From NCBI GenBank assembly GCA_018970045.1, contig JAGWXC010000002.1, positions 1-41,242 on the forward strand: DNA of 41,242 nt, written 5' to 3'. The translations under genes and the position numbers were made by a program. The DNA comes from Planctomycetota bacterium (lineage in GTDB: Bacteria; Planctomycetota; Phycisphaerae; Phycisphaerales; SM1A02). Under the pieces are notes generated by a model, which was not told where the DNA came from, made no database searches, and worked only from the letters and a program-made list of their open reading frames with translations. Of this stretch, positions 522 through 35,987 are shown piece after piece. Every line of letters starts with the position of its first letter. Position 1 is the first letter of the stretch.

Positions 522-1057
522 GAGCCGGCTCGGCGCGGGGCAGCGAACGAGAGCGCCACGGCACCCGCAGCGATCGCCGACAGGCTCGCAGCACCGTTGA
601 AGCGCTCCGCCCAAGGGTGCAAGGCATCCATCGTGCCCTTGTGCATGAGCGCACCCTCGGTGTTGCCTGCATGCACCGCGGCGTGCCACGCGGTGCCCAC
701 GGCAGCCGTACGCGTGTCAAGCACATGGCTCGCGGCCGTCATCACGCCTGCAGCCACAAGGAGCGCAATGGTCCAGGTTGGGCGGCGCAGCATCGATCTA
801 GCCAGCAGCACGAGCGCCACGGGAGCGATGGCGAGCTTGACCCACGCCATGGCCGCGAAGGCCGTTCCGGCAACCTGACCGGCCACGAAACTGCCCGAGC
901 CTGCGGCATCGCCGGCGAACCAGGCGCCGGCAGCCGGATCGACGGCGCCCATGCGCTTGAGCACCGTGAAGGACGTGATCGCCACCAGAGTCGGTGCGGC
1001 ACAGGCCATGCACCAGAGGCACCAGGTCACGCATGCTGCGAGCACCGTTCGGTTCAT
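518..1057 (-). CDS. Small integral membrane protein, 179 aa (DUF4149-like; family uncertain)
   Basis: C-terminal part of ORF 518..1918(-), starting at MNRTVLAACVTWCLWCMACAAPTLVAITSFTVL; several hydrophobic segments; ATGA overlap with nth. Confidence 0.7.
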   Translation of the reverse strand: MNRTVLAACVTWCLWCMACAAPTLVAITSFTVLKRMGAVDPAAGAWFAGDAAGSGSFVAGQVAGTAFAAMAWVKLAIAPVALVLLARSMLRRPTWTIALLVAAGVMTAASHVLDTRTAAVGTAWHAAVHAGNTEGALMHKGTMDALHPWAERFNGAASLSAIAAGAVALSFAAPRRAGS

Positions 1058-1063
1058 GCAGCA

Positions 1064-1069
1064 AGGGTA
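1064..1069 (-). promoter_or_regulatory. TAnnnT -10-like box (TACCCT), 6 nt before ATG 1057(-)
   Basis: Minus strand GCGTACCCT-tgctgc-ATG. Confidence 0.6.
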
Positions 1070-1075
1070 CGCCGC

Positions 1076-1081
1076 TACGCT
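1076..1081 (+). promoter_or_regulatory. TAnnnT box (TACGCT), 6 nt before GTG 1088
   Basis: CCGCTACGCT-tgcggc-GTG. Confidence 0.65.
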
Positions 1082-1087
1082 TGCGGC

Positions 1088-1867
1088 GTGCTGACCCAGC
1101 TCACGAGCGCGATTCCTGAACCGAGCGTGGCCATCGAGCATCTTGGCCTGTCCTTCGCCGATGCACTCGCGTGGTGCTCGACGGCCGGCGCGCATGCGGT
1201 GCAGCTTTCGGCCACCATGCCGCAGACCCGCGTGCGCACGATGGATCGCAGCGAGCGCAGGGGGATCGGTGATGCGGTCCGCGCCTCGAACGCAGCGGCA
1301 ACGGGGATCGACTGCATCCTGCCGCCCGAGCATCTGGCTGATCCGGCCCGCGCGGACACGGCGGCACAAGCGCTCCTGGCTGCGATCGAGTGGGCTGAAC
1401 TCCTTGGCCGCCTCACGGTCACGACCTGGTTGCCTGCGAGCGATGGTCAGGCGACGGCACTCGCCGTGCGCACGGCGGTCATTGCCGAAGCTCAACGACG
1501 CGGTGTGACGCTGGCCGTGCTCGGCGGCGGCCACGACACGGATGGGCCGGCCGCAATCGCGATCGATCCGCCCGTGCTGCTTGCGGCTGGTGAGTCGGTC
1601 GATGCAGCGTGCGCCCGGGCGGGCTCGCGCCTGGCTGGACTTCGACTGGTCGATCTCCTGCGCAGCGGTCATCGCGGCCCTGTGCTGCAGCCAGGCGACG
1701 CGCGCCTGGATGCGCTGGCGCTGGCGGCCACGCTCGCGACGATCGGCTTCCGGGCGCACCCCGTCATCGATGCGCGCGGATGGGCCGACGCGCAGACCGG
1801 CATCCGCTCCACGCTTGATCGCTGGCTCGATCGTCCCTTGGCCGCCCGAGGTGCTGCGCATGCATGA
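1088..1867 (+). CDS. Sugar phosphate isomerase/epimerase-like TIM-barrel protein, 259 aa (GTG start)
   Basis: In-frame part of ORF 617..1867; LGLSFADALAWCSTAGAHAVQLSA... pattern; GTG at 1088 directly after a TAnnnT box. Confidence 0.6.
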   Translation: MLTQLTSAIPEPSVAIEHLGLSFADALAWCSTAGAHAVQLSATMPQTRVRTMDRSERRGIGDAVRASNAAATGIDCILPPEHLADPARADTAAQALLAAIEWAELLGRLTVTTWLPASDGQATALAVRTAVIAEAQRRGVTLAVLGGGHDTDGPAAIAIDPPVLLAAGESVDAACARAGSRLAGLRLVDLLRSGHRGPVLQPGDARLDALALAATLATIGFRAHPVIDARGWADAQTGIRSTLDRWLDRPLAARGAAHA

Positions 1868-2258
1868 GGTGATCGGGATCGGCATCGACCTCGTCGACTG
1901 CGCGCGCATCGAGCGCATGCTGGGCGAGCATGAACAGGCGTTCCTGGACCGCGTCTACACCGCGGCGGAGCAGGCCTATTGCGCTCGCTCGCGCAACCGC
2001 ATCGAGCGCCTCGCCGCCCGCTACGCCGCCAAGGAGGCCGTGCTCAAGGCGCTTGGGACGGGCATGCGGGATGGCATGAGCTGGACCGAGATCGAGGTCA
2101 GCCATGATCTCCTCGGAGCCCCCGTGGTCAGCCTGACAGGGGCGGTGGCGCAAACGGCCTCCGAACGGGGTGTGGTGCGGCTGCACCTGTCGCTGACCCA
2201 TGCCGGCGGGGTCGCCATGGCGCAGGTCATGGCGATGGGTCCCGTCGGATCTTCCTGA
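1860..2258 (+). CDS. acpS: Holo-[acyl-carrier-protein] synthase
   Basis: MHEVIGIGIDLVDCARIERMLGEHEQAFLDRVYTAAEQAYC...RLAARYAAKEAVLKALGTG; hallmark G(I/T)D..(E/D)..R and W/A.KEA motifs; overlaps the previous CDS by 8 bp. Confidence 0.95.
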   Translation: MHEVIGIGIDLVDCARIERMLGEHEQAFLDRVYTAAEQAYCARSRNRIERLAARYAAKEAVLKALGTGMRDGMSWTEIEVSHDLLGAPVVSLTGAVAQTASERGVVRLHLSLTHAGGVAMAQVMAMGPVGSS

Positions 2259-2263
2259 ATCGC

Positions 2264-2269
2264 TACGAT
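2264..2269 (+). promoter_or_regulatory. TAnnnT box (TACGAT), 7 nt before ATG 2277
   Basis: CGCTACGAT-ccgcacc-ATG. Confidence 0.65.
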
Positions 2270-2276
2270 CCGCACC

Positions 2277-2912
2277 ATGCAGCGCCGTGGCAAAGCGACT
2301 CTGTATGAACTCATGCGCAAGGGCGTAGGCGATCCCACGCCGAGCCGTCCGTCAGGCGCGGGGTTCTCGCTCGGCAGCGGCGCCATCGAACCGCGTCGTC
2401 CGTGGAAGGCGTGGGCGATCCTCGGCGTGCTGGTCGCGGTGGCGGTCGTCGTCGTGGGCATCGTGCTCCTGCGTGATGGTGCATCGAATGATGCGGGGTC
2501 GGGCGCGCGGCCCGCACCGGCACCGGGCACGTCGCTGCAACCCGCTCCTTCCGCCAACGGCGCGCCCGCGTCCACGCCCGCGTTATCCACGGCAAAGCCC
2601 GCGCTTCCAGCCACGGCGGGTGGTGATCCGCGCAAGGCTGGTCTCAATTATCTGGTGGTCATGACTGGTGCCGCCACGCCAGCGGGGGAGCTCGCCGCGT
2701 TCCTGCGCGGCAAGGGGCTTGATGCGTGGCAGGTTTCCGGCAATAATGCCGGACTCTCCAAAGTGATCGTCCTGCCCGCGTCCACGACCGGGTCGGACCA
2801 AGCTGCGGAGGCGCTCAGGAACGAGGTCAAGGCCGTCGGTCGCCTGTGGAAGGCAGCCAAGGCGGGCAACCCGGACTTGAGCGACTGCTACTACGAGAAG
2901 TACAAGGGCTGA
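2277..2912 (+). CDS. Conserved-looking single-TM hypothetical protein, 211 aa
   Basis: One TM (AILGVLVAVAVVVVGIVLL), A/P-rich linker, compact C-terminal domain LNYLVVMTGAATPAGELAAFLRGKGLDAWQV...DCYYEKYKG. Confidence 0.75.
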   Translation: MQRRGKATLYELMRKGVGDPTPSRPSGAGFSLGSGAIEPRRPWKAWAILGVLVAVAVVVVGIVLLRDGASNDAGSGARPAPAPGTSLQPAPSANGAPASTPALSTAKPALPATAGGDPRKAGLNYLVVMTGAATPAGELAAFLRGKGLDAWQVSGNNAGLSKVIVLPASTTGSDQAAEALRNEVKAVGRLWKAAKAGNPDLSDCYYEKYKG

Positions 2913-2945
2913 GTCCCGCGCACGAACGACTGAAGGAACACGACC

Positions 2946-3209
2946 ATGAGCATTCACCCGAGCCTCAAGACCAAGTCCGGCGCCCTCGCGCAGCACCGCA
3001 ACGTGCTCACGCGCACCGAGCGCATCGCCAAGCTCAGCGCCGAAGAGCGCTTCAGCATGGAGAAGAACAGCGCGCTCGGCCTGGTCAAGGTGCGCAGCAT
3101 CAAGGCCGCCGCCGGCAAGAAGAAGGCCAAGGAAGGCGAAGCAGCAGCCGCCGATCCGAAGGCCAAGGGCGGCGCCAAGGCCGCAGCTCCGGCCGCCAAG
3201 AAGAAGTGA
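2946..3209 (+). CDS. PVC-type small basic protein, 87 aa, with Lys/Ala-rich tail
   Basis: MSIHPSLKTKSGALAQHRNVLTRTERIAKLSAEERFSMEKNSALGLVKVRSIKA followed by K/A-rich tail; SD (aagga) upstream. Resembles the 'small basic protein' family I recall as TIGR04137. Confidence 0.85.
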   Translation: MSIHPSLKTKSGALAQHRNVLTRTERIAKLSAEERFSMEKNSALGLVKVRSIKAAAGKKKAKEGEAAAADPKAKGGAKAAAPAAKKK

Positions 3210-3236
3210 GCCTCGGCTCCCATCGCTAGACTCCTC

Positions 3237-3262
3237 GCGCCCCCGGCAACCACCGGGGGCGC
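3237..3262. terminator. Strong GC hairpin GCGCCCCCGG-caacca-CCGGGGGCGC
   Basis: Perfect 10-bp stem, 6-nt loop, downstream of the small basic protein gene; lies in the leader of the aminotransferase gene. Confidence 0.7.
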
Positions 3263-3279
3263 TTCATTTCGGAGACCCC

Positions 3280-4422
3280 ATGAGCCACCCACTCGAACAC
3301 CTGATCTCTGATCGCGCCCGAGGCATGCAGCCCAGCGGCATCCGTCGCATCCTCGAGTCGGGGCTCAAGCTCCAGAATCCGATCAACCTCAGCATCGGCC
3401 AGCCGGATTTCCCGGTGCCCGAGCCCATGAAGCAGGCGGCGATCGATGCCATCCGAAACGACCGCAACGGCTACTCGCTGACCGTCGGCGTGCCGGAACT
3501 GCTTGAGGCTGCCTGGGCGCATGTCGGGCGGGATCTGGGTTGGCACAACGATGGCTCGCTGGGACTCTTCATCAATTCGGGCACGAGCGGCGCGCTGCTG
3601 CTCGTGGCGATGGCGCTGCTTGATCCGGGCGATGAGTTCGTGATGCCTGATCCGTTCTTCCTGCACTACCCGCAGCTGTGCTACATGACCAACAGCGTGC
3701 CGGTGTACTGCGACACGTACCCCGACTTCCGCATGACGGCCGATCGCATCGAGCGGTGCCTGACGCCGCGCACGAAGGCCGTGCTCATCTGCAGCCCAAG
3801 CAACCCGTGCGGCACGGTGCTCACCGAGGCTGAACTGCGCGACATCGTCGACCTCTGCAAGGGCCGCAACCTGCAGCTCGTGAGCGACGAGATCTACGAC
3901 GAGTTCGTCTTCGGCATGCCCGAGGCGCCGAGCCCGGCGCGGTTCTCGAAGGACGTGCTTGTGATCCGGGGCTTCGGCAAGACCTACGGCTGCACCGGCT
4001 GGCGGCTGGGCTACTCGGCCGGGCCGATCCACCTGATCCAGCAGATGACCAAGCTGCAGCAGTACACGTACGTCTGCGCGCCCACGCCGCTGCAGGTGGC
4101 TGCTGCGCACGCCTACCGCTGCGACCTGTCGGGCGCGCTCCTGGCGTACGAGCGCCGCCGCGACATGGTGCTCAAGGCGTTCGAGGGCGTGGTCGACCTG
4201 CCCAAGCCCGAGGGTGCGTTCTACGCGTTCGTGCCCGTGCCGGAACGTCTCGGCATGACCGGCACGCAGTTCTGCGAGAAGGCGCTCGAGCGGCGCGTGC
4301 TCGTGGTGCCGGGCGGCGTCTTCAGCGCGCGCGACACGCACTTCCGCATCTCCTACGCCGTGAACGATGCTCAGCTGGCCGAAGGGCTGCAGATCCTGCG
4401 CGATCTGATGCTGGGCGCCTGA
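3280..4422 (+). CDS. Class I/II pyridoxal-phosphate aminotransferase, 380 aa
   Basis: INLSIGQPDFPVPEPM...SPSNPCGTV...LVSDEIYDEF...VIRGFGKTYGCTGWRLGY (PLP-lysine region). Confidence 0.93.
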   Translation: MSHPLEHLISDRARGMQPSGIRRILESGLKLQNPINLSIGQPDFPVPEPMKQAAIDAIRNDRNGYSLTVGVPELLEAAWAHVGRDLGWHNDGSLGLFINSGTSGALLLVAMALLDPGDEFVMPDPFFLHYPQLCYMTNSVPVYCDTYPDFRMTADRIERCLTPRTKAVLICSPSNPCGTVLTEAELRDIVDLCKGRNLQLVSDEIYDEFVFGMPEAPSPARFSKDVLVIRGFGKTYGCTGWRLGYSAGPIHLIQQMTKLQQYTYVCAPTPLQVAAAHAYRCDLSGALLAYERRRDMVLKAFEGVVDLPKPEGAFYAFVPVPERLGMTGTQFCEKALERRVLVVPGGVFSARDTHFRISYAVNDAQLAEGLQILRDLMLGA

Positions 4423-4484
4423 CTGGCCGCGCGGCGGCGGGGCATGGCACCGCGCCGCCTGCACGACGCACTCCATGAACGACG

Positions 4485-4509
4485 ACGCCCCGGCTCGAGG
4501 CCGGGGCGT
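4485..4509. terminator. Hairpin ACGCCCCGGC-tcgag-GCCGGGGCGT between convergent genes
   Basis: Perfect 10-bp stem, 5-nt loop between 4422(+) and 4558(-). Confidence 0.75.
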
Positions 4510-4557
4510 TGCCGTGGATTGGACTGTGTCCGACGGCCCGTGCGAGCGGGCGGTCGA

Positions 4558-4770
4558 TCAGTTCTTCTTCGGGGGTTCGACGCCCGCCGCGCCGCTGCTC
4601 GACTGGAGCTTGCGGTTGGCGTTGAAGGCATCATCGGGCGCCTGGACCTGCGCTGCAGGCGGCTTGCGCTTCTGGTCTTCACGGATCGCGGTGCTCGACG
4701 ATCCGCCGCCGCCGCACGCGGTCAGCATGGATGCGCCGAGGATGCTGCACAGGATGAGAGTGGTCTTCAT
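4558..4770 (-). CDS. Small lipoprotein, 70 aa
   Basis: MKTTLILCSILGASMLTACGGGGSSS: signal peptide plus lipobox LTAC; SD aaggag upstream. Confidence 0.8.
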   Translation of the reverse strand: MKTTLILCSILGASMLTACGGGGSSSTAIREDQKRKPPAAQVQAPDDAFNANRKLQSSSGAAGVEPPKKN

Positions 4771-4794
4771 CGGTGGACTCCTTGGTTGGGTGGA

Positions 4795-4800
4795 ACGATA
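4795..4800 (-). promoter_or_regulatory. TAnnnT box (TATCGT), 24 nt before ATG 4770(-), with SD
   Basis: GCTATCGT-tccacccaaccAAGGAGtccaccg-ATG. Confidence 0.55.
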
Positions 4801-4819
4801 GCAGAAAGACGACGCGGGG

Positions 4820-6610
4820 TCAGCGTTGGTTCGCGTCAAGGGTCGCCGGGAGATCGCTCGGTGACAGCCACCTCCACTGGGTGTGGAAGGTGTCGTCGTT
4901 GTCGGCCACGCCGACGTTGATCGCGCCGACGCCCTTCAGGAGTCCGGCGGGGATGGTGCATCGCGCCGACCAGCCTTCGGTCGCGGGTACGCGTTCAAAC
5001 GTCGGGCCGCCGGGTGCACCGAGCAGGGAACCGGTCGAGGGTTCCCAGGTCCACACCGCGGGTTCGCCCGCCGCGTGCAATCGGATGGCCAATGCATCGA
5101 CCAAGGGATTCGTGGCCCGGTCGCGGCGCTTGGTGGCTGCAGGGAACGACTCGGCCACGCGGTCGTCGGGGACCCGCACGGTCAGGACGAGCGAGTCGCC
5201 AGCACGCTCGGCCGTGATCGTCGGCGGTGCGTCGTCGGTGGCGTAGGGGGTCCAATCCCATTCCTCCAGGGGAAGAGGCACACCGGTGGCCAGCGTGCGT
5301 GCGATCGGCAGGCGGCGACGCACGGCGACCGGCACGGTGCGGCCCTTTGAGTCGCTGAACGAGAGCTCCACCACGGCTTCGGGGGCCCGCAGCGGATCCT
5401 TGAGTGCGGGGCAGTTCACGGTCAGGGGGATGGTTGCCTTGGCGCGCGGTGCAATCGTGACTGGCGGGATCGGATCGAGCGTGACCGGCGTATCGAGGTC
5501 GGTCACGGCCGGGTTGTGCGTGTCGCGGGGCGTGCGGCTCACCGCGGGCTCGCCCGGCACGATCCACTCTTCGCCGCTGCCGTCACGCAAACGCACAGCG
5601 GCGGTGATCGGTTGATCGATGGGGTTGCTGATGGTCACCGTGAGCGGCGCGTCGACCAAGCCGTTTGTGCTGGGCTCGGGCAGGGATCCCGCGATCACCA
5701 CCGTCTTCTCGTCGCGCTTGAGCTTGAACGCGCGCTCCTGGTCCTCGGCCACGATGAAATCGCCCGGCAGCGTGGCACCAGCGAACTGGTGCCAGACCTC
5801 GGCGGAGCCATCCTTCAGATCGAGCATCGAGATGTGCTGGAGTTGGCCAGTCAGCGGGTGCTGGTCGATCGCGCCGCCGCAGGTGCCGAGGATGTGGTAC
5901 TGCACGCCGTCGCGATCGGGATCGCGCTGCATGCTGTGGAAGTGGCCGGCGATCACGGCAACGGTGCCCGCCGGCGCCAGCAGGGGGTGCACGCGATCGT
6001 CCCAGCCCACCTCGCGGTAGCGCCAGAGCGGGCGGTGCATGAGCAGGATCGACGGCACGTTGCGCGCCTTCGCGCGGTCCAGCTGGCCCTTGAGCCACGC
6101 GAATTGCTCGTCGCCAAGCGTGATCGAACGGTCGTCGAGGTTCTCGTCGGAGTAGACGATGATCGCGGTCATCCGATCAAGATCGACCGCGTACCACAGT
6201 GGGCCGACTTCACGGCGGTAGAGCTCGGCGAAGCGCCGGTCGGATGGATCGCGCGTGCCCGCGATCACGTCATGATTGCCGGCGGTCGGATACCACGGCA
6301 TGTCGAGCGCCTTCACGCGCGTGAGGTACGCGTTCATCTGCGACTGCCACACCTCGGGTCGGCGTGTGTAACCCTGGATCAGGTCGCCAACGCAGAACAC
6401 GGCATCAGGCTTGAGGCGATTGAGGTCCTCGACCGCGGCATCGAGGTAGGGCAGGCCCCAGTCGCGGCCCGTCGTGCGATCGGGCAGGATGGCAATCCGC
6501 AGATCGCGCTTGGCGGGCGGTGCTTGCACGACCTGCCCCTCGCGAGCGCCGCCATCCGGGGCATCGGTGAACGGAGGAACGACGACCAACGCCAAGAGGA
6601 GCGCAAGCAT
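4820..6610 (-). CDS. Secreted calcineurin-like metallophosphoesterase with C-terminal CBM9-like/Ig-like region
   Basis: VFCVGDLIQGY...WYPTAGNHDV...SILLMHRPLW...VIAGHFHS metallophosphoesterase motifs; signal peptide MLALLLALVVVPPFTDA; C-terminal region resembles CBM9-like domains. Confidence 0.88.
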   Translation of the reverse strand: MLALLLALVVVPPFTDAPDGGAREGQVVQAPPAKRDLRIAILPDRTTGRDWGLPYLDAAVEDLNRLKPDAVFCVGDLIQGYTRRPEVWQSQMNAYLTRVKALDMPWYPTAGNHDVIAGTRDPSDRRFAELYRREVGPLWYAVDLDRMTAIIVYSDENLDDRSITLGDEQFAWLKGQLDRAKARNVPSILLMHRPLWRYREVGWDDRVHPLLAPAGTVAVIAGHFHSMQRDPDRDGVQYHILGTCGGAIDQHPLTGQLQHISMLDLKDGSAEVWHQFAGATLPGDFIVAEDQERAFKLKRDEKTVVIAGSLPEPSTNGLVDAPLTVTISNPIDQPITAAVRLRDGSGEEWIVPGEPAVSRTPRDTHNPAVTDLDTPVTLDPIPPVTIAPRAKATIPLTVNCPALKDPLRAPEAVVELSFSDSKGRTVPVAVRRRLPIARTLATGVPLPLEEWDWTPYATDDAPPTITAERAGDSLVLTVRVPDDRVAESFPAATKRRDRATNPLVDALAIRLHAAGEPAVWTWEPSTGSLLGAPGGPTFERVPATEGWSARCTIPAGLLKGVGAINVGVADNDDTFHTQWRWLSPSDLPATLDANQR

Positions 6611-10024: not shown

Positions 10025-10030
10025 AGTGTA
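10025..10030 (-). promoter_or_regulatory. TAnnnT box (TACACT), 6 nt before pyrF ATG
   Basis: CCGTACACT-ccgccc-ATG. Confidence 0.65.
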
Positions 10031-10062: not shown

Positions 10063-10068
10063 TACGCT
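10063..10068 (+). promoter_or_regulatory. TAnnnT box (TACGCT), 6 nt before cinA ATG
   Basis: CCCTACGCT-tgccgc-ATG. Confidence 0.65.
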
Positions 10069-14039: not shown

Positions 14040-16996
14040 CCGCGGTCCCGGCTGCGCTCACGATCCGCGGAGAGCCTGCGTCCGTGGACGCAGCGGCATT
14101 GGATCTGCTCGCGGGGCAGGTGCCGGACATTGAGGTGCTCACGTCGCGTCATGACCGAATGCTCTACGCGACGGACGCGAGCATCTACCAGGTCGAGCCG
14201 CTCGGCGTGGTGCTGCCTCGCACCCCGGAGGCCGCAGCCGAGGCGGCATGCTGGCTCCTCGCGCGCGGGATTCCCGTGCTTCCTCGCGGTGGCGGCACGG
14301 CGCTGGCGGGCCAGAGCGTCAATCGTGCGGTCGTGGTGGATTTCAGCAAGCACTGCCGCCGGATCGAGTCGATCGATGTGGAGGCTCGCCGCGCGATCGT
14401 CGAGCCCGGCGTCGTGCTCGATCAGCTCAATGCGGCGCTCGCCACGCATGGGCTCATGTTCGGGCCTGACGTCGCGACCTCGAGCCACGCCACCATCGGT
14501 GGCATGGTCGGCAACAATTCGGCAGGGGCCAACAGCATCCTCTATGGCCGCACCGTCGAGAACCTGATCGCGCTGCAGGTGGCGCTGCCGGATGGTCGGG
14601 TCACGTGGCTGCGTGAGGGCGGTGCGATGGATGACCCGATCCAGGCGGAACTTGCTGCGCGGCTCTGGGCCATCGTCGAGCCGATCGCAGCGGAGATCGA
14701 TGCGCGCGTCCCCACGATCCTGCGGCACGTCGACGGCTATAACCTCGATCTCTTCCTCAAGCAGGTCCGGGCGAGCACGCCGGGCACCTTCGATCGCGTG
14801 AATCTGGCGCACCTCGTGTGCGGCGCCGAGGGCACGCTGTGCACGGTGCTGCGTGCGGAGCTCGCGCTCGTGCCGCGACCGGCGCATCGCGGCCTGGCGA
14901 TCCTCGGCTTCCCATCGATCGACGATGCCCTGGCGTGCCTTGGCGCCTTGCTCGCGACCGGGCCATCGGCGGTCGAGCTGGTCGATGACGTGATCATCAG
15001 CATGGCCCTGCGCAACCGCGAGTACGCGGGCTATGTCCACGTGATGCCGCAGCCTGCCTCGGGCCAGCTCGGTGCCGTGCTCTACGTGCAGTACTTCGGG
15101 GACGATGCAGCCGCGATCCGCGCTCGATGCGACGCGGTCGCGGGTCTGGTGCCCGGCGCAGCGCATCGCACGTGCGTCGATGCCGCTTCCATGGAGCAGG
15201 CCTGGAAGCTGCGCAAGGCAGGGGAACCGCTGCTGCATGCCGTGCCGGGCGCGCGCAAACCCGTCACGTTCGTGGAGGACACGGCGGTTGATCCGTCGCG
15301 CCTGCCTGCGTTCGTCAAGGAATTCAGGGCGATCGTCGAGCGACATGGCACGACGGCGGCCTACTACGCCCACGCCTCGGTCGGGTGCCTGCACATCCGT
15401 CCGCTCATCGCGCTCGATGATGACCACGATCTGTCGGTCATGCGCGCGATCGCCGTGGAGATCGCCGAGCTCGTGGTGCGTCACCATGGCGCGATCAGCG
15501 GCGAGCATGGTGACGGCCGCGTGCGCACGCCGCTGCTGGGGATCGTGCTCGGCGAGCCCGTGTGCGCGGCGCTGCGTAGCGTGAAGGCGGTCTTCGATCC
15601 GACTGGATTGATGAATCCGGGGAACCTCGTCGACACTGATGACCCGGCCCGGATGACCGAGCACCTTCGGGTGCGCCCGCACGGGGCGTTCGTGAAGGTC
15701 GAGCCTCGTCCGACGTTCTTCCGCTTCGCCGCGGAAGAAGGCCTGGAGCACGCGGCATCGCAGTGCAACGGAGCGGGCATCTGCCGGCGGATTGCTCCCG
15801 GCGGCACGATGTGCCCGTCCTACCGCGTGCTGCTCGATGAGCGCCACACCACGCGTGGGCGCGGCAACGCGCTGCGCCTGGCGATCACGGGCCAGCTCGA
15901 GGGCGGCCGTGCCTCGTGGTCCGATCCGGCAACGCAGGAGACGCTGTCGCTCTGTCTCTCGTGCAAGGCGTGCGCCAGCGAATGCCCGAGCAACGTGGAT
16001 CTGGCCAAGATCAAGGCCGAGTACACCGCGCAGGGCTTCGCCGAGCGCGGGCGCGTGCCGTGGCGGGTGCGCGCGCGCGGCCGCGTTCGTGGGCTGCAAC
16101 GGCTGGGCAGCCGCATGGCGCCCTTGGCCAACGCGGTGGCCAGCGTCGTGCCGCTGCGAAAGCTGCTGCAATCGATCCTTGGGCTCGCGACCGATCGACC
16201 GCTGCCGGCCTTCGGCAAGGATGCCGCGCTGCGCATGCGCGGCGTGCCGCAACCGGTGGGTGCTCCGACCGTCCTGCTCTTCGGCGATTGCTTCACGCAG
16301 TACGGCGAGAGCGATGTGGCGATGGATGCCGTGGCGGTTCTGAATGCCTTCGGGTACCGCGTCGCCTTCGCCGATGCTGGGTGCTGCGCTCGGTCGCTCA
16401 TCTCGACTGGCATGCTCGCCGAGGCGCTTGCGACCGTCCCACGCACGGCTCGTGCGCTGCGTGACGCGATCGAGCGTGAGCGCGCCGTGGCCGTGCTCAT
16501 GCTCGAACCCTCGTGCATGAGCGCTGTCGTCGATGACTGGCAGGACCTGTCGTTGCCGCCCGCCGCGACCGACGACGCGCGCGCCGTCGCGACCCTCGTC
16601 GACTCGGTCGAGGGGTTCCTCGAGCGCCGGTGGAACGAGCACCCGCAGCGACCGCTGCCGGCACCGGGCATCGACGAGGCTCTGGCCGTGCACCTGCATT
16701 GCCATCAGAAGGCGCTCTGGGGCGGCGCCACCACGATGGGGCTGCTGCGCCGTTTCTACCCACGCGCTGAGCAGCTCGCCACGGGCTGCTGCGGCATGGC
16801 CGGGGCGTTTGGGTACGACGCTCACACGGCGGACCTGTCGGTACGCATCGCCAAGCAGGACCTGATTCCGGCCGTCGTGGCACGCCCCGGCCACCTGGTG
16901 TGTGCGCCCGGCACGAGCTGCCGCCATCAGGTGCAGGATCTCGCCGATCGCTCCGCGCTCCATCCGATCAGCCTCGTGCGCCGCGCCTTGCGCTAG
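14036..16996 (+). CDS. FAD-binding + (Fe-S)-binding oxidoreductase (GlcD-GlcF fusion, D-lactate/2-hydroxyglutarate dehydrogenase-like)
   Basis: PRGGGTALAGQSVNRAVVVDFSKH; GPDVATSSHATIGGMVGNNSAGANS; Cys clusters CNGAGICRRIAPGGTMCPS and CLSCKACASECPSNVD; C-terminal CCGMAGAFGY. GTG start overlaps the previous stop. Confidence 0.92.
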   Translation: MTAVPAALTIRGEPASVDAAALDLLAGQVPDIEVLTSRHDRMLYATDASIYQVEPLGVVLPRTPEAAAEAACWLLARGIPVLPRGGGTALAGQSVNRAVVVDFSKHCRRIESIDVEARRAIVEPGVVLDQLNAALATHGLMFGPDVATSSHATIGGMVGNNSAGANSILYGRTVENLIALQVALPDGRVTWLREGGAMDDPIQAELAARLWAIVEPIAAEIDARVPTILRHVDGYNLDLFLKQVRASTPGTFDRVNLAHLVCGAEGTLCTVLRAELALVPRPAHRGLAILGFPSIDDALACLGALLATGPSAVELVDDVIISMALRNREYAGYVHVMPQPASGQLGAVLYVQYFGDDAAAIRARCDAVAGLVPGAAHRTCVDAASMEQAWKLRKAGEPLLHAVPGARKPVTFVEDTAVDPSRLPAFVKEFRAIVERHGTTAAYYAHASVGCLHIRPLIALDDDHDLSVMRAIAVEIAELVVRHHGAISGEHGDGRVRTPLLGIVLGEPVCAALRSVKAVFDPTGLMNPGNLVDTDDPARMTEHLRVRPHGAFVKVEPRPTFFRFAAEEGLEHAASQCNGAGICRRIAPGGTMCPSYRVLLDERHTTRGRGNALRLAITGQLEGGRASWSDPATQETLSLCLSCKACASECPSNVDLAKIKAEYTAQGFAERGRVPWRVRARGRVRGLQRLGSRMAPLANAVASVVPLRKLLQSILGLATDRPLPAFGKDAALRMRGVPQPVGAPTVLLFGDCFTQYGESDVAMDAVAVLNAFGYRVAFADAGCCARSLISTGMLAEALATVPRTARALRDAIERERAVAVLMLEPSCMSAVVDDWQDLSLPPAATDDARAVATLVDSVEGFLERRWNEHPQRPLPAPGIDEALAVHLHCHQKALWGGATTMGLLRRFYPRAEQLATGCCGMAGAFGYDAHTADLSVRIAKQDLIPAVVARPGHLVCAPGTSCRHQVQDLADRSALHPISLVRRALR

Positions 16997-16999
16997 GAT
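16994..16999 (+). promoter_or_regulatory. TAnnnT box (TAGGAT), 6 nt before response-regulator ATG; overlaps upstream stop TAG
   Basis: CGCTAGGAT-cgcccc-ATG. Confidence 0.65.
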
Positions 17000-19573: not shown

Positions 19574-19579
19574 AGCGTA
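19574..19579 (-). promoter_or_regulatory. TAnnnT box (TACGCT), 6 nt before POT transporter ATG
   Basis: CGCTACGCT-gcggga-ATG. Confidence 0.65.
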
Positions 19580-21111: not shown

Positions 21112-23108
21112 CGCGGGGCGATTGTACGGACGGCCGAGCCGGCTTGTGCACCGCTGGCGGTCGATTCCGCACGGCGTGGGGCGCCGCAACCCAGCGAGTC
21201 GATCAAGGCGCGGACCGTGCGAGCGATGCTGGCGCTGTCGATGCCGGCGTCCGCCATCTGCTCGGCACGCTCGCCGTGGCCGATCCAGGCGTCCGGAAGC
21301 CCCATGCGCACGATGCGCGAGGTGTCCAGGCCCATCTCGTTGCACGCCTCGAGCACGCAGGAGCCCAACCCGCCGCGCACCGAGTGATCCTCGATGGTCA
21401 CGATCGGGGTGCCCGCCTGGATCAGGCGGCGCAGGAGGCCAGCATCGACCGGCTTGGCGAAGCGGGCGTCGTAGACGGCCACGCGGTACTCAGGCAGCAT
21501 CGGAAGCGCGTCGAGGGCATCGAACGCCACCGTGCCGTAGGCGATGATGGCGACGTCGGCACCGGCTGGCTCGACCAGGGGTCGCGCGATGCCGAGTTGG
21601 AACGCGGGGCAGGGTTCATTGGCCAGGCGCGTGTCGACGTTGGCGCGCGGGTAGCGCATGGCCGACAGCCCTTGGTCGTAGCCGGCCATGAACTCGATGG
21701 CCGCCTTCATGCTGGCTTCGTCGATGGGCGCCAGCAGCGCGGCCTTGGGCAGCGTGGCCAGCAGCGACACGTCGCAGAAGCCGTGGTGCACCGCACCATC
21801 ACCGCCGACGAGCCCCGCGCGATCGAGGCACAGGCGCACGGCCAGCCCCTGCAGCGCCACTTCCTGGAACGCCTGGTCGTAGGCCCGCTGCAGGAAGGTG
21901 CTGTAGACCGCGAAGAAGGGCTTCCAACCCGTCTTCGCAAGTCCGGCCATCATGTCGAGCGCGTGGCTTTCGCAGATGCCCGTGTCCCACGTGCGCTCGG
22001 GGAACTTGGCCAGCGGCTTCGAGATGCCAGTGCCGTCGGGCATGGCGGCGGTGGCGGCGCAGACCTTGGGGTCGCGCGACATCAAATCGACCATCGCCTC
22101 GCCGAAGGCCGCGGTGAACGAACGTCCGCCCTTCTTGATCTCGACGCGGCAGCCCTCGTTCTCGAGATCGCCTTCCGCGACCGTGAACGGGCTGGGCGAG
22201 TGGAACGTGCACGAATCTTGCTCAGCGAAGCGGAAGCCCTTGCCCTTGACGGTCTTCACGTGCAGCACGATCGGCCGGTCGGTGTGCTTGGCCTCGTTCA
22301 GGAACTCGATCAGCGTGGGCAGGTCATGGCCATCGATCGGACCGACCGTGAGCAGGCCGAAGTGCTCGAACCATGCATCGTCGCTGAGGAAGCTCTTGCT
22401 GCTCTCGCCGACGCGGTGATAGAGATCGCGAGCCAGCCGGCCACCGGGAATGTTGTCGGTGATCTGCTTCGCGGCCTTCTTGAATTCACCGTAGGTGTGC
22501 GACAGCCGCACGCGGTCGAAGTACTGCGCCACAGCGCCCTGCGGCTTGGCGATGCTCATCCCGTTGTCGTTGAGGATCACCAGGAACTGCCGGTGGAGCG
22601 TGCCGGCTCCGTTGAGCCCTTCCATCGCCAGGCCGTTCACGATCGACGCATCGCCGATCACGGACACCACGCGCCGACCGGTGGGGTTCTCGTGCGACCA
22701 GCCCTCGCCGTTGAGCGAGTCGCCGCGCGCCATGCCGACGGCGGTGCTGATGGCCGTGCCGGCGTGACCGACGCTGAAGAGGTCATACGGACTCTCGACG
22801 GGAGCCGGGAAGCCCGCCATGCCACCGCGCTGGCGCAGCTTGGGCAGGAGGTGCTGGCGACCGGTGAGCAGCTTGTGCGTGTAGCACTGGTGACCGACGT
22901 CGAACAGCAGTCGATCGTGACCGAAGTCGAAGACATAGTGCATCGCCACGGTGAGCTCGACCACGCCCAGGTTCGGGGCAAGGTGACCACCGCTGCGAGA
23001 GACCTGATCGCAGATCGCAGCGCGGATCTCGGCGCACAGCTCCTGCAGTTGGGCGATGCTCAGGCGTCGGAGGTCGGCAGGAAATTGGATGGTCGGCAGG
23101 TGGGCCAT
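21108..23108 (-). CDS. dxs: 1-deoxy-D-xylulose-5-phosphate synthase
   Basis: SGGHLAPNLGVVELTVAMHYVF; DVGHQCYTHKLLTGR; VIGDASIVNGLAMEGLN; LCLDRAGLVGGDGAVHHGFCD. Start taken as second Met (MAHLPTIQFPADL). Confidence 0.95.
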   Translation of the reverse strand: MAHLPTIQFPADLRRLSIAQLQELCAEIRAAICDQVSRSGGHLAPNLGVVELTVAMHYVFDFGHDRLLFDVGHQCYTHKLLTGRQHLLPKLRQRGGMAGFPAPVESPYDLFSVGHAGTAISTAVGMARGDSLNGEGWSHENPTGRRVVSVIGDASIVNGLAMEGLNGAGTLHRQFLVILNDNGMSIAKPQGAVAQYFDRVRLSHTYGEFKKAAKQITDNIPGGRLARDLYHRVGESSKSFLSDDAWFEHFGLLTVGPIDGHDLPTLIEFLNEAKHTDRPIVLHVKTVKGKGFRFAEQDSCTFHSPSPFTVAEGDLENEGCRVEIKKGGRSFTAAFGEAMVDLMSRDPKVCAATAAMPDGTGISKPLAKFPERTWDTGICESHALDMMAGLAKTGWKPFFAVYSTFLQRAYDQAFQEVALQGLAVRLCLDRAGLVGGDGAVHHGFCDVSLLATLPKAALLAPIDEASMKAAIEFMAGYDQGLSAMRYPRANVDTRLANEPCPAFQLGIARPLVEPAGADVAIIAYGTVAFDALDALPMLPEYRVAVYDARFAKPVDAGLLRRLIQAGTPIVTIEDHSVRGGLGSCVLEACNEMGLDTSRIVRMGLPDAWIGHGERAEQMADAGIDSASIARTVRALIDSLGCGAPRRAESTASGAQAGSAVRTIAPR

Positions 23109-24078: not shown

Positions 24079-24084
24079 AGTGTA
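24079..24084 (-). promoter_or_regulatory. TAnnnT box (TACACT), 6 nt before polyprenyl synthase GTG
   Basis: CGTTACACT-cgaacc-GTG. Confidence 0.6.
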
Positions 24085-24099: not shown

Positions 24100-24105
24100 T
24101 ATGAT
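24100..24105 (+). promoter_or_regulatory. TAnnnT box (TATGAT), 10 nt before ATG 24116
   Basis: CCCTATGAT-gccacgctcc-ATG. Confidence 0.55.
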
Positions 24106-28877: not shown

Positions 28878-28883
28878 AGCCTA
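28878..28883 (-). promoter_or_regulatory. TAnnnT box (TAGGCT), 6 nt before pilin-like ATG
   Basis: ACGTAGGCT-gcgggc-ATG. Confidence 0.6.
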
Positions 28884-30266: not shown

Positions 30267-30275
30267 GGGCCGGGG

Positions 30276-30281
30276 AGTGTA
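30276..30281 (-). promoter_or_regulatory. TAnnnT box (TACACT), 9 nt before ispG ATG
   Basis: GGCTACACT-ccccggccc-ATG. Confidence 0.55.
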
Positions 30282-30339: not shown

Positions 30340-31686
30340 ATGACCACCCCAGGAAACGGCTCAGCCAACGGACGGCTCTCGATCATGATGTTTCTGCAGT
30401 ACGCCATCTGGGGCGCCTGGCTGCCCTTGCTGTGGCCGTACCTCTCGAACCACCTGAAGTTCTCCGGCGCCGACATCGGCAACGCCTTCGCCCTGGGCGC
30501 GCTCGGCGCGATCTTCGCGCCCTGGATCGCCGGCCAGGTGGCTGACCGCTACTTCAACACCGAGCGCTTCCTCGGGCTGGCCCACATCGCCGGTGGCGTG
30601 CTGGTCTGGATGCTGGCGTCGATCCAGACCGTCGACCAGTTCCTCTGGTTCAGCTTCTTCTACAGCATCGTCTACTCGCCCACGCTGCCGCTCACGAACT
30701 CGCTCGCCCTCAGCCACTGCGACCGCGACCGTGACTTCGGCAAGGTCCGTCTCTGGGGCACGGTCGGCTGGATCGTCGTCGGCATCGCCATCGGACAGTG
30801 GCTGCTGCGGACCCACACCCCGTCAGCCGAGGCGCTCGCGGGCCTCGATGCCGCCGCCGCCAAGGCGAAGACCGATGCCGCGCACTTCGCCGGCATGGCC
30901 GACGCGTTCAAACTCTCGGGCTTCCTCGGTGTGGTGATGGGCGTCTACTGCTTGCTCGTCCTGCCCAGCACGCCACCTCAGCCTGGCCGCCAGAAGAGCG
31001 CCATCCGCGAAGCCATCCAGCAGGTCCGCCTGGCGCCGCTGGTCACGCTGTTCATGCTCGCGGTTCCCGTGAGCTGCATCCACCAGTTCTACTTCGTCCA
31101 CACGAGCGGTTTCGTGGGCGGCCTGCAGGGCGACACCGAGGATGGCTTCAGCAAGATCGTCAACTCGATCTTCGGCGTCGGTGGTGGCGGCCTCATGACC
31201 ATCGGCCAGATGAGCGAGATCGCCGTGCTCGCCTTCATCCCCACGCTCGCGGCGACCTACAGCCGCAAGACGCTGCTCGCGATCGGCCTCGGCGCCTACG
31301 CCGCCCGCATGTTCCTCTTCGCCTACGGCCCCGGCATGGCCGCGGGCGCCGGTATGAGCCCGCTGGCGTTTGTCATCCCCGGGATCGCGCTGCATGGACT
31401 GTGCTTCGGCTGCTTCATCTTCGTCGCCTTCATGATCGTCGATGAAGAGACCAGCGGCGACGTGCGCGCGAGCGCGCAAAGCTTGTTCAACCTTGTCATC
31501 ATCGGGATCGGGATCATCGTCGGCAGCAAGATCGCGAGCGCCGTATCCGACATCACCAAGGTCGACGGCGTGCAGGACTTCAAGGCCATGTTCAGCGTGC
31601 CGATGTGGGGCGCGCTCTTCTGCCTCGTCATGCTGTTGATGTTCTACCTGCCCAAGAGCCCGCGGCAGGCGACCGCCGCGAACTGA
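30340..31686 (+). CDS. MFS nucleoside permease-like transporter (NupG/Nuc_H_symport type)
   Basis: MMFLQYAIWGAWLPLLWPYLSNHLKFSGADIGNAFALGALGAIFAPWIAGQVADRYF; FGKVRLWGTVGWIVVGIAIGQWLL; 12-TM pattern. Confidence 0.88.
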   Translation: MTTPGNGSANGRLSIMMFLQYAIWGAWLPLLWPYLSNHLKFSGADIGNAFALGALGAIFAPWIAGQVADRYFNTERFLGLAHIAGGVLVWMLASIQTVDQFLWFSFFYSIVYSPTLPLTNSLALSHCDRDRDFGKVRLWGTVGWIVVGIAIGQWLLRTHTPSAEALAGLDAAAAKAKTDAAHFAGMADAFKLSGFLGVVMGVYCLLVLPSTPPQPGRQKSAIREAIQQVRLAPLVTLFMLAVPVSCIHQFYFVHTSGFVGGLQGDTEDGFSKIVNSIFGVGGGGLMTIGQMSEIAVLAFIPTLAATYSRKTLLAIGLGAYAARMFLFAYGPGMAAGAGMSPLAFVIPGIALHGLCFGCFIFVAFMIVDEETSGDVRASAQSLFNLVIIGIGIIVGSKIASAVSDITKVDGVQDFKAMFSVPMWGALFCLVMLLMFYLPKSPRQATAAN

Positions 31687-31937
31687 CGGCGCAAGGTGCG
31701 AGCGACGAATCCACGCGCATCCGTCGCGTGATCGTGCGCTCGTCCTCCCGCGACCTCGGGTTCCGGCCGCGCGGACGCGCGCGCTGCACCCGGCTCCGCG
31801 CGCGCTCCTCCTGCGTCGCTCGGCGGGGCTGGCACCCGCCTCCGATGATCGCGCACCGTGCCGCCATCGCGACTCCGCAGGCCGCGCAGCTCGGAACCGC
31901 TCGGTCGCTCCGGACGAGCGGGGGTTGCGCCTGCCCT

Positions 31938-32116
31938 GCGGCCGTCGCGGAAAGGGGGCGCGGCATGCCTCGCCGAGCGAGTTCCGCAGCCTGCGAGGAA
32001 AGCTGGCGCGCAGTGCCAGTCAGTGACCACAGGTTGACATCCGCGCCAGTTTCTGAGCAGGCGAGGACTGTCTGAGCGAACGAGGCATGCCGGCGCCCCA
32101 AAGGAGCGACGGCCGC
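31938..32116. repeat. Imperfect 179-bp inverted repeat in the long convergent intergenic gap
   Basis: Paired arms: GCGGCCGTCGC 31938-31948 / 32106-32116; CGGCATGCCTCG 31961-31972 / 32081-32092; CTGGCGCG 32003-32010 / 32042-32049, in nested order. Confidence 0.75.
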
Positions 32117-32157
32117 GAAGAAAACGGCAAGCACGCAGAGCGTCGAACCGCCCGCGC

Positions 32158-34926
32158 TCAGCCGGTCCAGGCCGGGAGCGTGGCCACGCCGCCTTCCATC
32201 GCGAGCGCCGACAGCGGCGTGCCCTCGGGCACCGGCGTCAGGCCATCGCGACGGGTGAGCGAGAGCTTGGTCTGCCCGCGCATGTGCTCCTCGAGCGCGA
32301 TCTCGAGTGCCTTGCGCCGGTCGTCCGGCAACTTGGCGAAGGCTTCGCGCCCGCGGCACTTGGGGAAGCCTCGGCAACCAAGCCACGGGCCCCGCTTGCC
32401 ATCGCGCAGGTTCATCACGTCGCCGCACTTGGGGCAGGGGATGTCCGTCACGACCGGCGGGGGCGAGGGGAACTTGAGCCCGCCCTTGCGGTCGAGATTC
32501 AGGATGAACGGCGGTGGCTCAGTCGGCAGCTCGGCTGCCTTCTTGCCCTTGGGCTTCACGGGGCGCGGCTTGTCCTCGACAAGGAACTCGCCGAAGCGGC
32601 CCGTGCGTTTGACCATCGGCACGCCTGCAGGCGAGAGCAGGTCGAGCTGCTCGGCCATGAGCGGTTCGCCGCGGCGATTGCAAGGCGATGCGAAGGAGCA
32701 CGCCGGGACCATCTTGGGTGGTTTCGGCTTGGCCTTGGAGGAAGCCTTCTTCGCGGGCTTGGCGGCGGCGGCCGGATCGGGGACCTTCTCGTTGTAGCCG
32801 CTGCACGACAGGAACTTTCCCGTTCGACCGAGTCGGTACTCGAGCCGACGCCCGCACTGCGGGCAGGCGTGCGGCGATGGCTCCGACGAAGCCTTGACGT
32901 GGTCGGCCTGCGCAGCGGTGCCCAGCAGCGGCTTGAGCGCATCGTGGAATCGGTGGAGCAGGTCCGTCCAGCGTTCCTTGCCCTGCGCGACCTCGTCGAG
33001 TTCGCGCTCGATGCCGCGGGTGTAGCCGAGTTCGATGAACTGGCTCTTGAAGCCGGCCTTCAGGAACTCGGTCACGGCCTCGCCGAGCGCGGTGGCGTAG
33101 AAGCGGCGATCCTGCTGCTCGACGTAGCCACGATCCTCGATGGTGTTGATCGTGCTGGCGTAGGTCGAAGGCCGGCCGATGCCCTCTTCCTCGAGTTTCT
33201 TGACGAGCGTGGCTTCGGAATAGCGCGGCGGGGGAGCTTGGAAGCGCTGGCGCGGCTCGATGTCGAAGGGCGCGAGCATCGCACCCTTCTCGAAGGCTGG
33301 CAGGACCTGGTCGCCATCGTCCTTGGGCAGGCCGCTGATCTTGTAGAAGCCGTCGAAGCGCAGGACCCGGCCGTTGGCCTTGAAGACCGCACCAGTGTCG
33401 CGATCCGATCGGCGCATGCGCACAGCGGTCGAATCCCATTCGGCATCAGTCGATTGGCACGCGACGAAGCACGACCAGATCAGCCGGTACAGCTTGAGCT
33501 GCTCGTCCGTGAGCGCACTGGCGATGCGGTCCGGCTCGCGGAACGCGTCGGTGGGACGGATCGCCTCGTGGGCTTCCTGCGCGGCCTCGTTGCTGCTCGC
33601 GTAGAAGCGGGGCTTCTCGGGAACGTACCGGTCGCCAACGCGATCCTTCAGGTACCGACGCGCCATGTCGACGGCCTCGCGCGACAGGTTGGTCGAGTCC
33701 GTTCGCATGTAGGTGATCAGGCCGACGCGGCCTTCGCCCGGAAGATCGATGCCTTCGTAGAGCTGCTGGGCGATCCGCATGGTGCGATCGGTCGACATGC
33801 CCAGCCGGCTGCTGGCGGCTTGCTGGAGCGTGCTCGTGATGAACGGCGGGTACGGCTTGGAGCGCGTGCGGGTGACGTCGATGGACTCGACGCGGTAGCG
33901 CGCCGCCGGATCGGGTCGGCCCACGATGCGCACGAGCTTCTGGCCGCGCCCCTTGGCGGCACCATCGCTTGCGCGGTCGGTGCGCAGGTCGATCAGACCA
34001 GCAGCCTCGGCAGCCGACTGGGCATCTGGTGCCAGATCGACCTCGCTCGTGTTCGGGGCTTCGATGCGCAGCGGCTTGCCGCCCACCTCGACGAGTTCGC
34101 ACGAGAGCGCGGTGTGCTCGGCCAGCCACGCCATGCGCTCGCGCACGAGTGGCGGACGGCCGCGCTCATCGCGGCGCGCGAGGAACGTGGACCATTCGCC
34201 GTGGAGGCCAACCGCCGCATCAACCTGGAAGGTCATGCAGGCGGAAAGCTCCCATGACTCGCTCGGTGTGAACGCACGAATCTCCTGCTCGCGCTCGACC
34301 ACGATCCGGGTGGCCACGCTCTGCACGCGGCCTGCGCTCAGGCCGCCGGCGACCTTCTTCCACAGGATTGGGGAGACCTGGTAGCCCACGATGCGATCGA
34401 CGATGCGGCGAGCCTGCTGCGCATCGACGCGGTCCATGTTGATGGCGCGCGGCGACTGGAACGCGCGCTGCACCTCGCTCTTGGTGATCGCGTCGAACGT
34501 CACGCGCTTGGCCTGGGCCGGCTCCACGCCGAGCACCTGGGTGAGGTGCCAGGCGATCGCTTCGCCCTCGCGGTCCAAGTCGGTGGCGAACCAGACCTCG
34601 TTGGCGCTCTTGGCCAGCCGACGCAGCTCCGACACGGTGCGCGTCTTGTCGTCGTCGATTTCGTAGGTCGGGGCGAAGTCGTGATCGAGATCAACCCCCG
34701 GGACCGGCTGCTTCTCGCCCTTGGGGGACTTGCTCGGCAGGTCGCGAATGTGGCCGATGGAGGCCTTCACCACGAAGCCGGGACCGAGGTACTTCTCGAT
34801 GGTCTTGGCCTTGGCGGGGCTCTCGACGATCACCAGCTGGTACGCGCCCTTGGGGGTCGGCGTGGGCTCGGCATCCCGGCGGCGGGAACCGGATCGCTTC
34901 GATGAGGAGGTGCGTGCTTTGGCCAT
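32158..34926 (-). CDS. topA: DNA topoisomerase I (type IA), 922 aa
   Basis: YQLVIVESPAKAKTIEKYLG; VWFATDLDREGEAIAWHL; GLITYMRTDSTNLS; C-terminal zinc-ribbon cysteines CPQCGRRLEY, CPKCGDVM. Confidence 0.97.
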   Translation of the reverse strand: MAKARTSSSKRSGSRRRDAEPTPTPKGAYQLVIVESPAKAKTIEKYLGPGFVVKASIGHIRDLPSKSPKGEKQPVPGVDLDHDFAPTYEIDDDKTRTVSELRRLAKSANEVWFATDLDREGEAIAWHLTQVLGVEPAQAKRVTFDAITKSEVQRAFQSPRAINMDRVDAQQARRIVDRIVGYQVSPILWKKVAGGLSAGRVQSVATRIVVEREQEIRAFTPSESWELSACMTFQVDAAVGLHGEWSTFLARRDERGRPPLVRERMAWLAEHTALSCELVEVGGKPLRIEAPNTSEVDLAPDAQSAAEAAGLIDLRTDRASDGAAKGRGQKLVRIVGRPDPAARYRVESIDVTRTRSKPYPPFITSTLQQAASSRLGMSTDRTMRIAQQLYEGIDLPGEGRVGLITYMRTDSTNLSREAVDMARRYLKDRVGDRYVPEKPRFYASSNEAAQEAHEAIRPTDAFREPDRIASALTDEQLKLYRLIWSCFVACQSTDAEWDSTAVRMRRSDRDTGAVFKANGRVLRFDGFYKISGLPKDDGDQVLPAFEKGAMLAPFDIEPRQRFQAPPPRYSEATLVKKLEEEGIGRPSTYASTINTIEDRGYVEQQDRRFYATALGEAVTEFLKAGFKSQFIELGYTRGIERELDEVAQGKERWTDLLHRFHDALKPLLGTAAQADHVKASSEPSPHACPQCGRRLEYRLGRTGKFLSCSGYNEKVPDPAAAAKPAKKASSKAKPKPPKMVPACSFASPCNRRGEPLMAEQLDLLSPAGVPMVKRTGRFGEFLVEDKPRPVKPKGKKAAELPTEPPPFILNLDRKGGLKFPSPPPVVTDIPCPKCGDVMNLRDGKRGPWLGCRGFPKCRGREAFAKLPDDRRKALEIALEEHMRGQTKLSLTRRDGLTPVPEGTPLSALAMEGGVATLPAWTG

Positions 34927-35039
34927 CGTCGGGGGCGGAGTGATACGGAGAAAGTGAAGGCGGTGTCAACGACCCACGGGCCCGGGAGTGACCGTGATGC
35001 ATGGGGCGTCGGCGTTTTTCGCCGCGTTTCTCCAGCGTT

Positions 35040-35975
35040 TCACGCGAAAGATATTTTTGCGATCTCAGCCATGCGCTCCTCCGTGAGCCCGTCGCCCGCA
35101 TCGATCCACGTCGAGCCCGGCGTGTCGGCGAAGCGCTTCAGCCACGTGCGCTGCTGCTTCGCGAGCTGACGCGTGGCGATCTTGATCGCCTCGAAGGCGT
35201 CGTCCTCGCTCGATGCCCCACGAAGGTGCGCGATCAGTTCGCGGTACCCGACGGCGGTCGCGGCTTGGGTACCGAATCCGCCGGCGGCGAGCAACGACCG
35301 GACTTCCTCGACGAGCCCCATCGCGCGCATGCCGCGCACACGTGCATTGATGCGACGATTGTTCGCCTCGACGCCCATGCAGAGGCCGATCAGCGACCAG
35401 CCGGCGGGCAAGGCCGTCGGTCGCTCGCGCCACTGCGCCTGCAACACGCTGATGGGTGTCCCGGTGGCACGATGGACCTCGATCGCCCGGATCGTGCGCC
35501 GCCGATCGTTGCGGTGGATGCGATCGGCGGCGGTCGGATCGATCCGCATGAGCTCGGTGCGGAGCGCATCGAGGTCCCACGCGGCGAGTTCCTCGCGCAG
35601 TGCGGGATCCGCCGGCGGCCCGTCGAATAGACCTTCCAGCAGCGCTTTGGCATACAGGTTCGTTCCACCCACCACGATGGCCACGCCGCCACGGCCGTGG
35701 ATCGCAGCGAGCGCCGCATGCGCGTGTTCCAGCCAATCCTCGACCGTGAAGCCATCGTGGGTCGGTTCGACGAGGTCGAGTCCGTGGTGGGCAACCTCGG
35801 CGCGCTCGGCAGCGGTCGGCTTGGCCGTGCCGACGTCCATGCCCCGGTAGACCTGCATGCTGTCAGCACTGATCAGCTCAGCCCGCGGCCCCGCGGCGCG
35901 GGCCATGGCCATGGCCAGCGCGCTCTTGCCGCTGGCGGTCGGTCCCATCACCACGATGACTCGGCCTTCAGCCAT
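35040..35975 (-). CDS. miaA: tRNA dimethylallyltransferase
   Basis: VIVVMGPTASGKSALAMAMA; ELISADSMQVYRGMDVGTAKPTAAE; HHGLDLVEP; VVGGTNLYAKALLEGLFDG. Confidence 0.96.
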   Translation of the reverse strand: MAEGRVIVVMGPTASGKSALAMAMARAAGPRAELISADSMQVYRGMDVGTAKPTAAERAEVAHHGLDLVEPTHDGFTVEDWLEHAHAALAAIHGRGGVAIVVGGTNLYAKALLEGLFDGPPADPALREELAAWDLDALRTELMRIDPTAADRIHRNDRRRTIRAIEVHRATGTPISVLQAQWRERPTALPAGWSLIGLCMGVEANNRRINARVRGMRAMGLVEEVRSLLAAGGFGTQAATAVGYRELIAHLRGASSEDDAFEAIKIATRQLAKQQRTWLKRFADTPGSTWIDAGDGLTEERMAEIAKISFA

Positions 35976-35981
35976 TCGCGG

Positions 35982-35987
35982 ACGGTA
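35982..35987 (-). promoter_or_regulatory. TAnnnT box (TACCGT), 6 nt before miaA ATG
   Basis: GGTACCGT-ccgcga-ATG; shares TA with the pgk box. Confidence 0.6.

Follow-up and report, generated by a model that had tools for sequence, protein, structure and literature searches.

Close TAnnnT hexamers as putative -10 elements of leaderless genes in the planctomycete order Phycisphaerales

TAnnnT hexamers in the window

We analyzed a stretch of 41,242 nucleotides (the window) from a freshwater metagenome-assembled genome of the order Phycisphaerales, in which pyrF, cinA, ispG, miaA and several other genes carry a TAnnnT hexamer a few nucleotides before the start codon. A first-pass annotation had reported nine hexamers separated from named starts by exactly 6 nt and a tenth by 7 nt, and all ten read as claimed. 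Three more close cases were absent from its list: 21111(-) and ispG 30266(-), both with a gap of 9 nt, and 24116(+), with a gap of 10 nt. These hexamers and that of pgk are given below, where the gap is the number of nucleotides between hexamer and start codon.

1064–1069, minus strand: putative -10 TACCCT, gap 6 to ATG 1057(-); identical in G347, a genome of the same genus
1076–1081, plus strand: putative -10 TACGCT, gap 6 to GTG 1088(+); back-to-back with the 1057(-) promoter
2264–2269, plus strand: putative -10 TACGAT, gap 7 to ATG 2277(+); gap 6 in G347
10025–10030, minus strand: putative -10 TACACT, gap 6 to ATG 10018(-), pyrF (OMP decarboxylase, PF00215)
10063–10068, plus strand: putative -10 TACGCT, gap 6 to ATG 10075(+), cinA (PF02464)
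16994–16999, plus strand: putative -10 TAGGAT, gap 6 to ATG 17006(+), response regulator (PF00072)
19574–19579, minus strand: putative -10 TACGCT, gap 6 to ATG 19567(-), POT-family transporter (PF00854)
21121–21126, minus strand: putative -10 TACAAT, gap 9 to ATG 21111(-)
24079–24084, minus strand: putative -10 TACACT, gap 6 to GTG 24072(-), polyprenyl synthetase (PF00348)
24100–24105, plus strand: putative -10 TATGAT, gap 10 to ATG 24116(+), a gene divergent from 24072(-)
28878–28883, minus strand: putative -10 TAGGCT, gap 6 to ATG 28871(-), prepilin-like protein (PF07963)
30276–30281, minus strand: putative -10 TACACT, gap 9 to ATG 30266(-), ispG/gcpE (PF04551)
35982–35987, minus strand: putative -10 TACCGT, gap 6 to ATG 35975(-), miaA (PF01715)
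35986–35991, plus strand: putative -10 TACCTT of the divergent, leadered pgk (start 36013, PF00162); overlaps the miaA hexamer

The window holds just 33 TAnnnT hexamers on both strands together, the ten reported sites among them, and base composition predicts far more. Start codons were picked solely from codon usage, without reference to the motif. TAnnnT stood at gap 6 before 8 of the 38 starts called in this way versus 1 of 2,806 other ATG or GTG triplets (Fisher p = 4e-15), in keeping with the earlier judgement that the same spacing would very rarely recur by chance. The exception among the reported sites is 1057(-), for which the codon-usage caller took GTG 985 instead of ATG 1057. ATG 1057 and its TACCCT are kept in the same-genus genome, with an identical hexamer and gap.

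Two of the divergent gene pairs have unusual arrangements. At 1057–1088 two putative leaderless genes diverge from -10 hexamers that are separated by 6 bp, so simultaneous occupancy of both promoters is hardly possible. At 35982–35991, miaA(-) and pgk(+) appear to use one common palindromic -10 with a GGTACC core. Read on the minus strand as TACCGT, it would lead to a leaderless start, and read on the plus strand as TACCTT, to a leader that contains GGAG at 36001–36004. Both hexamers are kept in the same-genus genome.

Spacing across the genome and the order

We assessed the position of TAnnnT in 456 kb of the same genome, comprising contigs known to hold matches and contigs taken regardless of matches. 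Of 359 starts called without reference to the motif, 52 had the hexamer at gap 6, where 0.95 were expected (p about 4e-70), and a further 39 had it at gaps 7–9, giving 91 for gaps 6–9 together; no start had it at gaps 0–5. The start codons are predictions, and they match homology for ispG, miaA and cinA. A small second rise was seen at gap 9. The first-pass annotation had set beforehand, as the test of its reading, a sharp genome-wide peak of TAnnnT at -12 with a contrast to intra-operon starts. Such a peak was found, and it is strongest in genes that come first in a transcription unit: gap 6 occurs in 24 of 122 divergent genes, in 20 of 114 same-strand genes with more than 25 nt upstream, and more weakly, in 8 of 111, at operon-internal starts. 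Of the genes that come first in a transcription unit, about 34% are preceded by a close TAnnnT, and the share over all sampled genes is about 25%, high enough for “a major mode” to be a fair description of leaderless translation in this genome.

RNA polymerase normally starts transcripts about 6–8 nt downstream of the -10 element. The sharp lower edge at gap 6 follows from this geometry, provided that the start codon may not lie upstream of the transcript start. Run with the same code, DNA of Deinococcus deserti and Thermus, known users of leaderless mRNA, gave a gap-6 peak, and a Sinorhizobium sample gave no gap-6 peak.

We considered whether the pattern could be an artefact of chance or composition, with starts read to fit the motif. 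The first sites were picked by eye, and half of the first contig sample was already known to hold matches, both of which could favor such an artefact. Against it, start calling took no account of the motif, and the match-independent contigs alone gave the same peak (14 of 128 starts at gap 6, none at gaps 0–5). Pattern counts over the whole genome, which need no gene calls, gave 246 occurrences of TAnnnT-N6-ATG versus 19 of TAnnnT-N4-ATG. The same N6 and N4 counts across the order, together with the statistics of observed against expected starts, refute this explanation, and we assign it a vanishingly small probability.

Across the order, the excess of TAnnnT-N6-ATG over TAnnnT-N4-ATG was significant after correction in 70 of 91 genomes, and in every family with several genomes the median excess was >100 sites. 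The AT-rich genomes of the order showed no N6-versus-N4 excess, and the test is also weak there. In Phycisphaera mikurensis NBRC 102666, a cultured member of the order, the counts were 321 and 18. Families beyond the order were surveyed by pattern counts, with G139 as a small additional sample. Among those sampled from the same class, the ratio of TAnnnT-N6-ATG to a reversed-pattern control was near 1, and in scattered families of high GC content in other parts of the phylum the pattern was 3–5 times as frequent as this control, with an excess of about 4–5-fold in, for example, genomes G094, G109, G150, G184 and G266.

The position of the hexamer is also conserved in orthologues. With the starts of ispG fixed by protein alignment, TAnnnT ended 6–10 nt before the ATG in 75 of 75 orthologues, while the flanks had diverged; because the orthologues are related, these are not 75 independent events. 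The hexamer shifts to TATACT or TACAAT in relatives and its T-A-N3-T form stays fixed. The ispG gap is bimodal in the 75 orthologues (L042–L121), with 32 genes at 6, 25 at 9 and fewer at 7–8. The related ispG loci belong to metagenome-assembled genomes labeled Phycisphaerae, Phycisphaerales, Planctomycetota or Planctomycetia, most of them recovered from lakes and ponds. In a comparison with the same-genus genome, 19 of 19 close sites were kept, 50 of 50 other starts were still without a close site, and the close spacing was kept at every window gene compared. Across the family, a close hexamer is present in only some orthologues of miaA (13 of 27) and of cinA (7 of 21). One of these seven cinA genes also has a Shine-Dalgarno (SD) word, as do 10 of the 14 others.

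Motif form, Shine-Dalgarno words and coding sequence

The fitted motif has frequencies of.92 for the first T,.97 for A and.99 for the last T, and accounts for 34% of first genes. A search for degenerate -10 sites at the remaining first genes gave no residual signal. That no consistent -35 hexamer would be seen, as the first-pass annotation had stated, was borne out by an alignment of 91 promoters: in their -35 zone no 5-mer was enriched after multiple-testing correction and TTGAC had zero occurrences. We therefore rejected a canonical sigma-70 promoter, in which a TTGACA-like -35 precedes the -10 by about 17 nt, since no word was enriched in that zone. A GGAAC-like -35 was also rejected, as such words precede some ispG genes and were not found at other genes.

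Two further base preferences surround the start codons. C occupies position -1 before 61–81% of start codons in all classes, including operon-internal and SD genes. Because it is about equally strong at operon-internal and SD starts, it is unusable as a transcription start signature. Nor do we attribute it to a special initiator tRNA: the fMet-like tRNA of a same-order relative (L156) has the usual CATAA loop, and the fMet-like tRNA pattern was not found in the draft genome under study. Gap-6 genes have C directly behind the start codon in 50% of cases, and SD and operon-internal genes mostly have A there.

SD-like words and close hexamers are nearly exclusive. An SD-like word was present in 1 of 76 first genes with TAnnnT at gap 6–9, versus 28 of 57 with TAnnnT 15–84 nt upstream (p = 7e-12). 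The exclusion is looser in the same-genus genome, where 7 of 53 close-TAnnnT genes have such a word. The 16S tail TGGATCACCTCCTT, which holds the anti-SD, is present in the genome; because it is intact, SD-led initiation coexists with the close-TAnnnT mode.

These counts bear on the explanation that the hexamers are promoters, yet secondary ones, with the main mRNAs starting further upstream. A second TAnnnT does lie further upstream at some genes, as this explanation expects. With an SD in just one of the 76 genes, however, a long leader on the close-TAnnnT genes would lack a start signal. The ispG spacing, kept in every orthologue while the surroundings change, argues in the same direction, and we consider upstream starts as the main source of these mRNAs very improbable.

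We compared the frequency of TAnnnT in coding sequence with that in within-gene synonymous shuffles. The ratio of observed to expected occurrences was 0.12 on the sense and 0.09 on the antisense strand in the genome under study, and 0.08 and 0.12 in P. mikurensis (L271–L290). For the other spacings, TA..T and TA....T, it was 0.63–0.82 and 0.90–1.04 in the two genomes, respectively. The depletion is thus 7–12-fold, affects both strands and is confined to this spacing. For comparison, we obtained sense/antisense ratios from 50–100 kb samples of other bacteria: 0.79/0.81 for E. coli (on annotated genes), 0.73/0.81 for Thermus, 0.59/0.52 for D. deserti, 0.48/0.67 for Sinorhizobium and 0.43/0.44 for Rhodococcus. 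The depletion in the genome under study and in P. mikurensis greatly exceeds that in any of these five. Two other planctomycete genomes that we sampled, G102 and G139, have a weaker purge (0.44–0.52). A test that needs no shuffling agreed. In the genome under study, T rather than C ended the next codon in 3.4% of cases after tyrosine versus 16.5% after other codons; the corresponding values were 0.4% versus 4.1% in P. mikurensis and 14% versus 24% in D. deserti. P. mikurensis therefore shows both features, the close TAnnnT and its purge from coding sequence. The unusually deep purge is the more surprising part of the finding.

Purging of the antisense strand as well requires that the motif act in DNA, and this argues against the explanation that it serves mainly as a translation signal. 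Under that explanation TAnnnT would be no promoter and would instead lie within a leadered mRNA, for example as an A/U-rich element for ribosomal protein S1. The hexamer does occupy the position of the SD and replaces it in cinA orthologues, and leaderless and S1 signals had been left unseparated for one planctomycete (PMC5397173). However, the purge is equal on the antisense strand of coding DNA, which is never read by the ribosome, and SD genes are enriched for the hexamer at 15–84 nt upstream, the pattern expected of a promoter. The T-A-N3-T form that persists through TATACT and TACAAT in relatives is likewise that of a -10 element. We therefore hold a translation signal to be very unlikely, and take the purge on both strands to indicate that TAnnnT acts in DNA, probably as a promoter.

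Proposed mechanism and comparison with known systems

From these sequence patterns, we are confident in proposing that TAnnnT is the housekeeping -10 element of this lineage, that it lies 6–9 nt before the start codon at about one third of transcription-unit-first genes, giving leaderless mRNAs, and that the other genes are leadered, many of them with an SD. The first-pass annotation was thus very probably right on the meaning of the hexamers. With the -10 so placed, RNA polymerase would begin at, or no more than about 3 nt from, the A or G of the AUG or GUG, so that the mRNA would be leaderless. Gaps of 7–10 nt, including that of ispG at 9, allow leaders of 1–4 nt, and some mRNAs may thus be near-leaderless. 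In leaderless mRNAs elsewhere, the 5'-terminal AUG is recognized by the 70S ribosome or by IF2/fMet-tRNA. By analogy, the ribosome would accept a 5'-terminal AUG or GUG here, and initiation presumably follows one of the same two routes. The remaining genes would be leadered, and many would have an SD motif that the normal anti-SD recognizes.

A broader proposal, for and against which we give equal weight, is that a bare TAnnnT, with no -35, starts transcription almost anywhere in Phycisphaerales DNA. If the hexamer were sufficient in this way, it would set both the transcription and the translation start at one third of promoters, and would for this reason have been purged from coding DNA, about ten-fold, to the point of dictating the codon that follows tyrosine. 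The depth of the purge makes the order suited to asking what minimal sequence the housekeeping RNA polymerase needs to start, and what this costs a genome. A clear mechanism is now proposed for one planctomycete order, with P. mikurensis as a cultured, fully sequenced test organism. Gene finders gain from it a start-site model that is needed for Phycisphaerales, and GeneMarkS-2 predictions may already flag such genomes.

We compared these results with previous studies. TANNNT about 12 bp upstream of the start was described as a sign of bacterial leaderless genes by Zheng et al. 2011 (PMC3160421), and planctomycetes are absent from the positive groups quoted from that study. Planctomycetes belong to the phyla regarded as poor in SD genes, and Nakagawa et al. 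2017 (PMC5397173) left “leaderless and/or S1” open for one planctomycete species. Zhong et al. 2025 (PMC12340547) put the function of the Deinococcus motif to experimental test and scanned all bacteria; planctomycetes are not named in their text. We found no paper that links P. mikurensis with leaderless genes, nor RNA data for the organism under study or its order; the literature searched was incomplete, so this absence of an earlier report is weak evidence. The best reading is that a known mechanism, leaderless transcription driven by the -10 and coexisting with an intact SD system, operates in a new lineage, for which we found no earlier report.

The closest likeness is to Deinococcus-Thermus (PMC12340547; PMC3160421). 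There too, TANNNT lies mostly 6–7 nt before the open reading frame at about one third of genes, T1, A2 and T6 are invariant, a -35 is not needed, GGAG SD genes occur alongside, and TACACT is a common form of the hexamer. Deinococcus-Thermus is a different phylum in which the motif has been tested by experiment, whereas the Phycisphaerales case is known here from DNA sequence. The purge differs as well: the ratios are 0.08–0.14 in this genus and P. mikurensis, versus 0.5–0.8 in the Deinococcus and Thermus DNA tested. Actinobacteria (Streptomyces, Mycobacterium; PMC3160421, PMC5741613) resemble the present lineage in their high GC content, TAnnnT motif, weak or absent -35 and a share of about 20% of genes. 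They are also a different phylum, and in a plasmid sample of R. jostii the peak was almost lacking (1 of 34) and the purge was milder (0.43–0.44). Finally, selection against spurious -10 motifs has been described in 42 genomes, in a text that does not mention planctomycetes (PMC1939733). As in Phycisphaerales, coding DNA loses -10 motifs that regulatory DNA retains. The purging known from that work is weaker, whereas the present one amounts to about ten-fold and is restricted to a single spacing.
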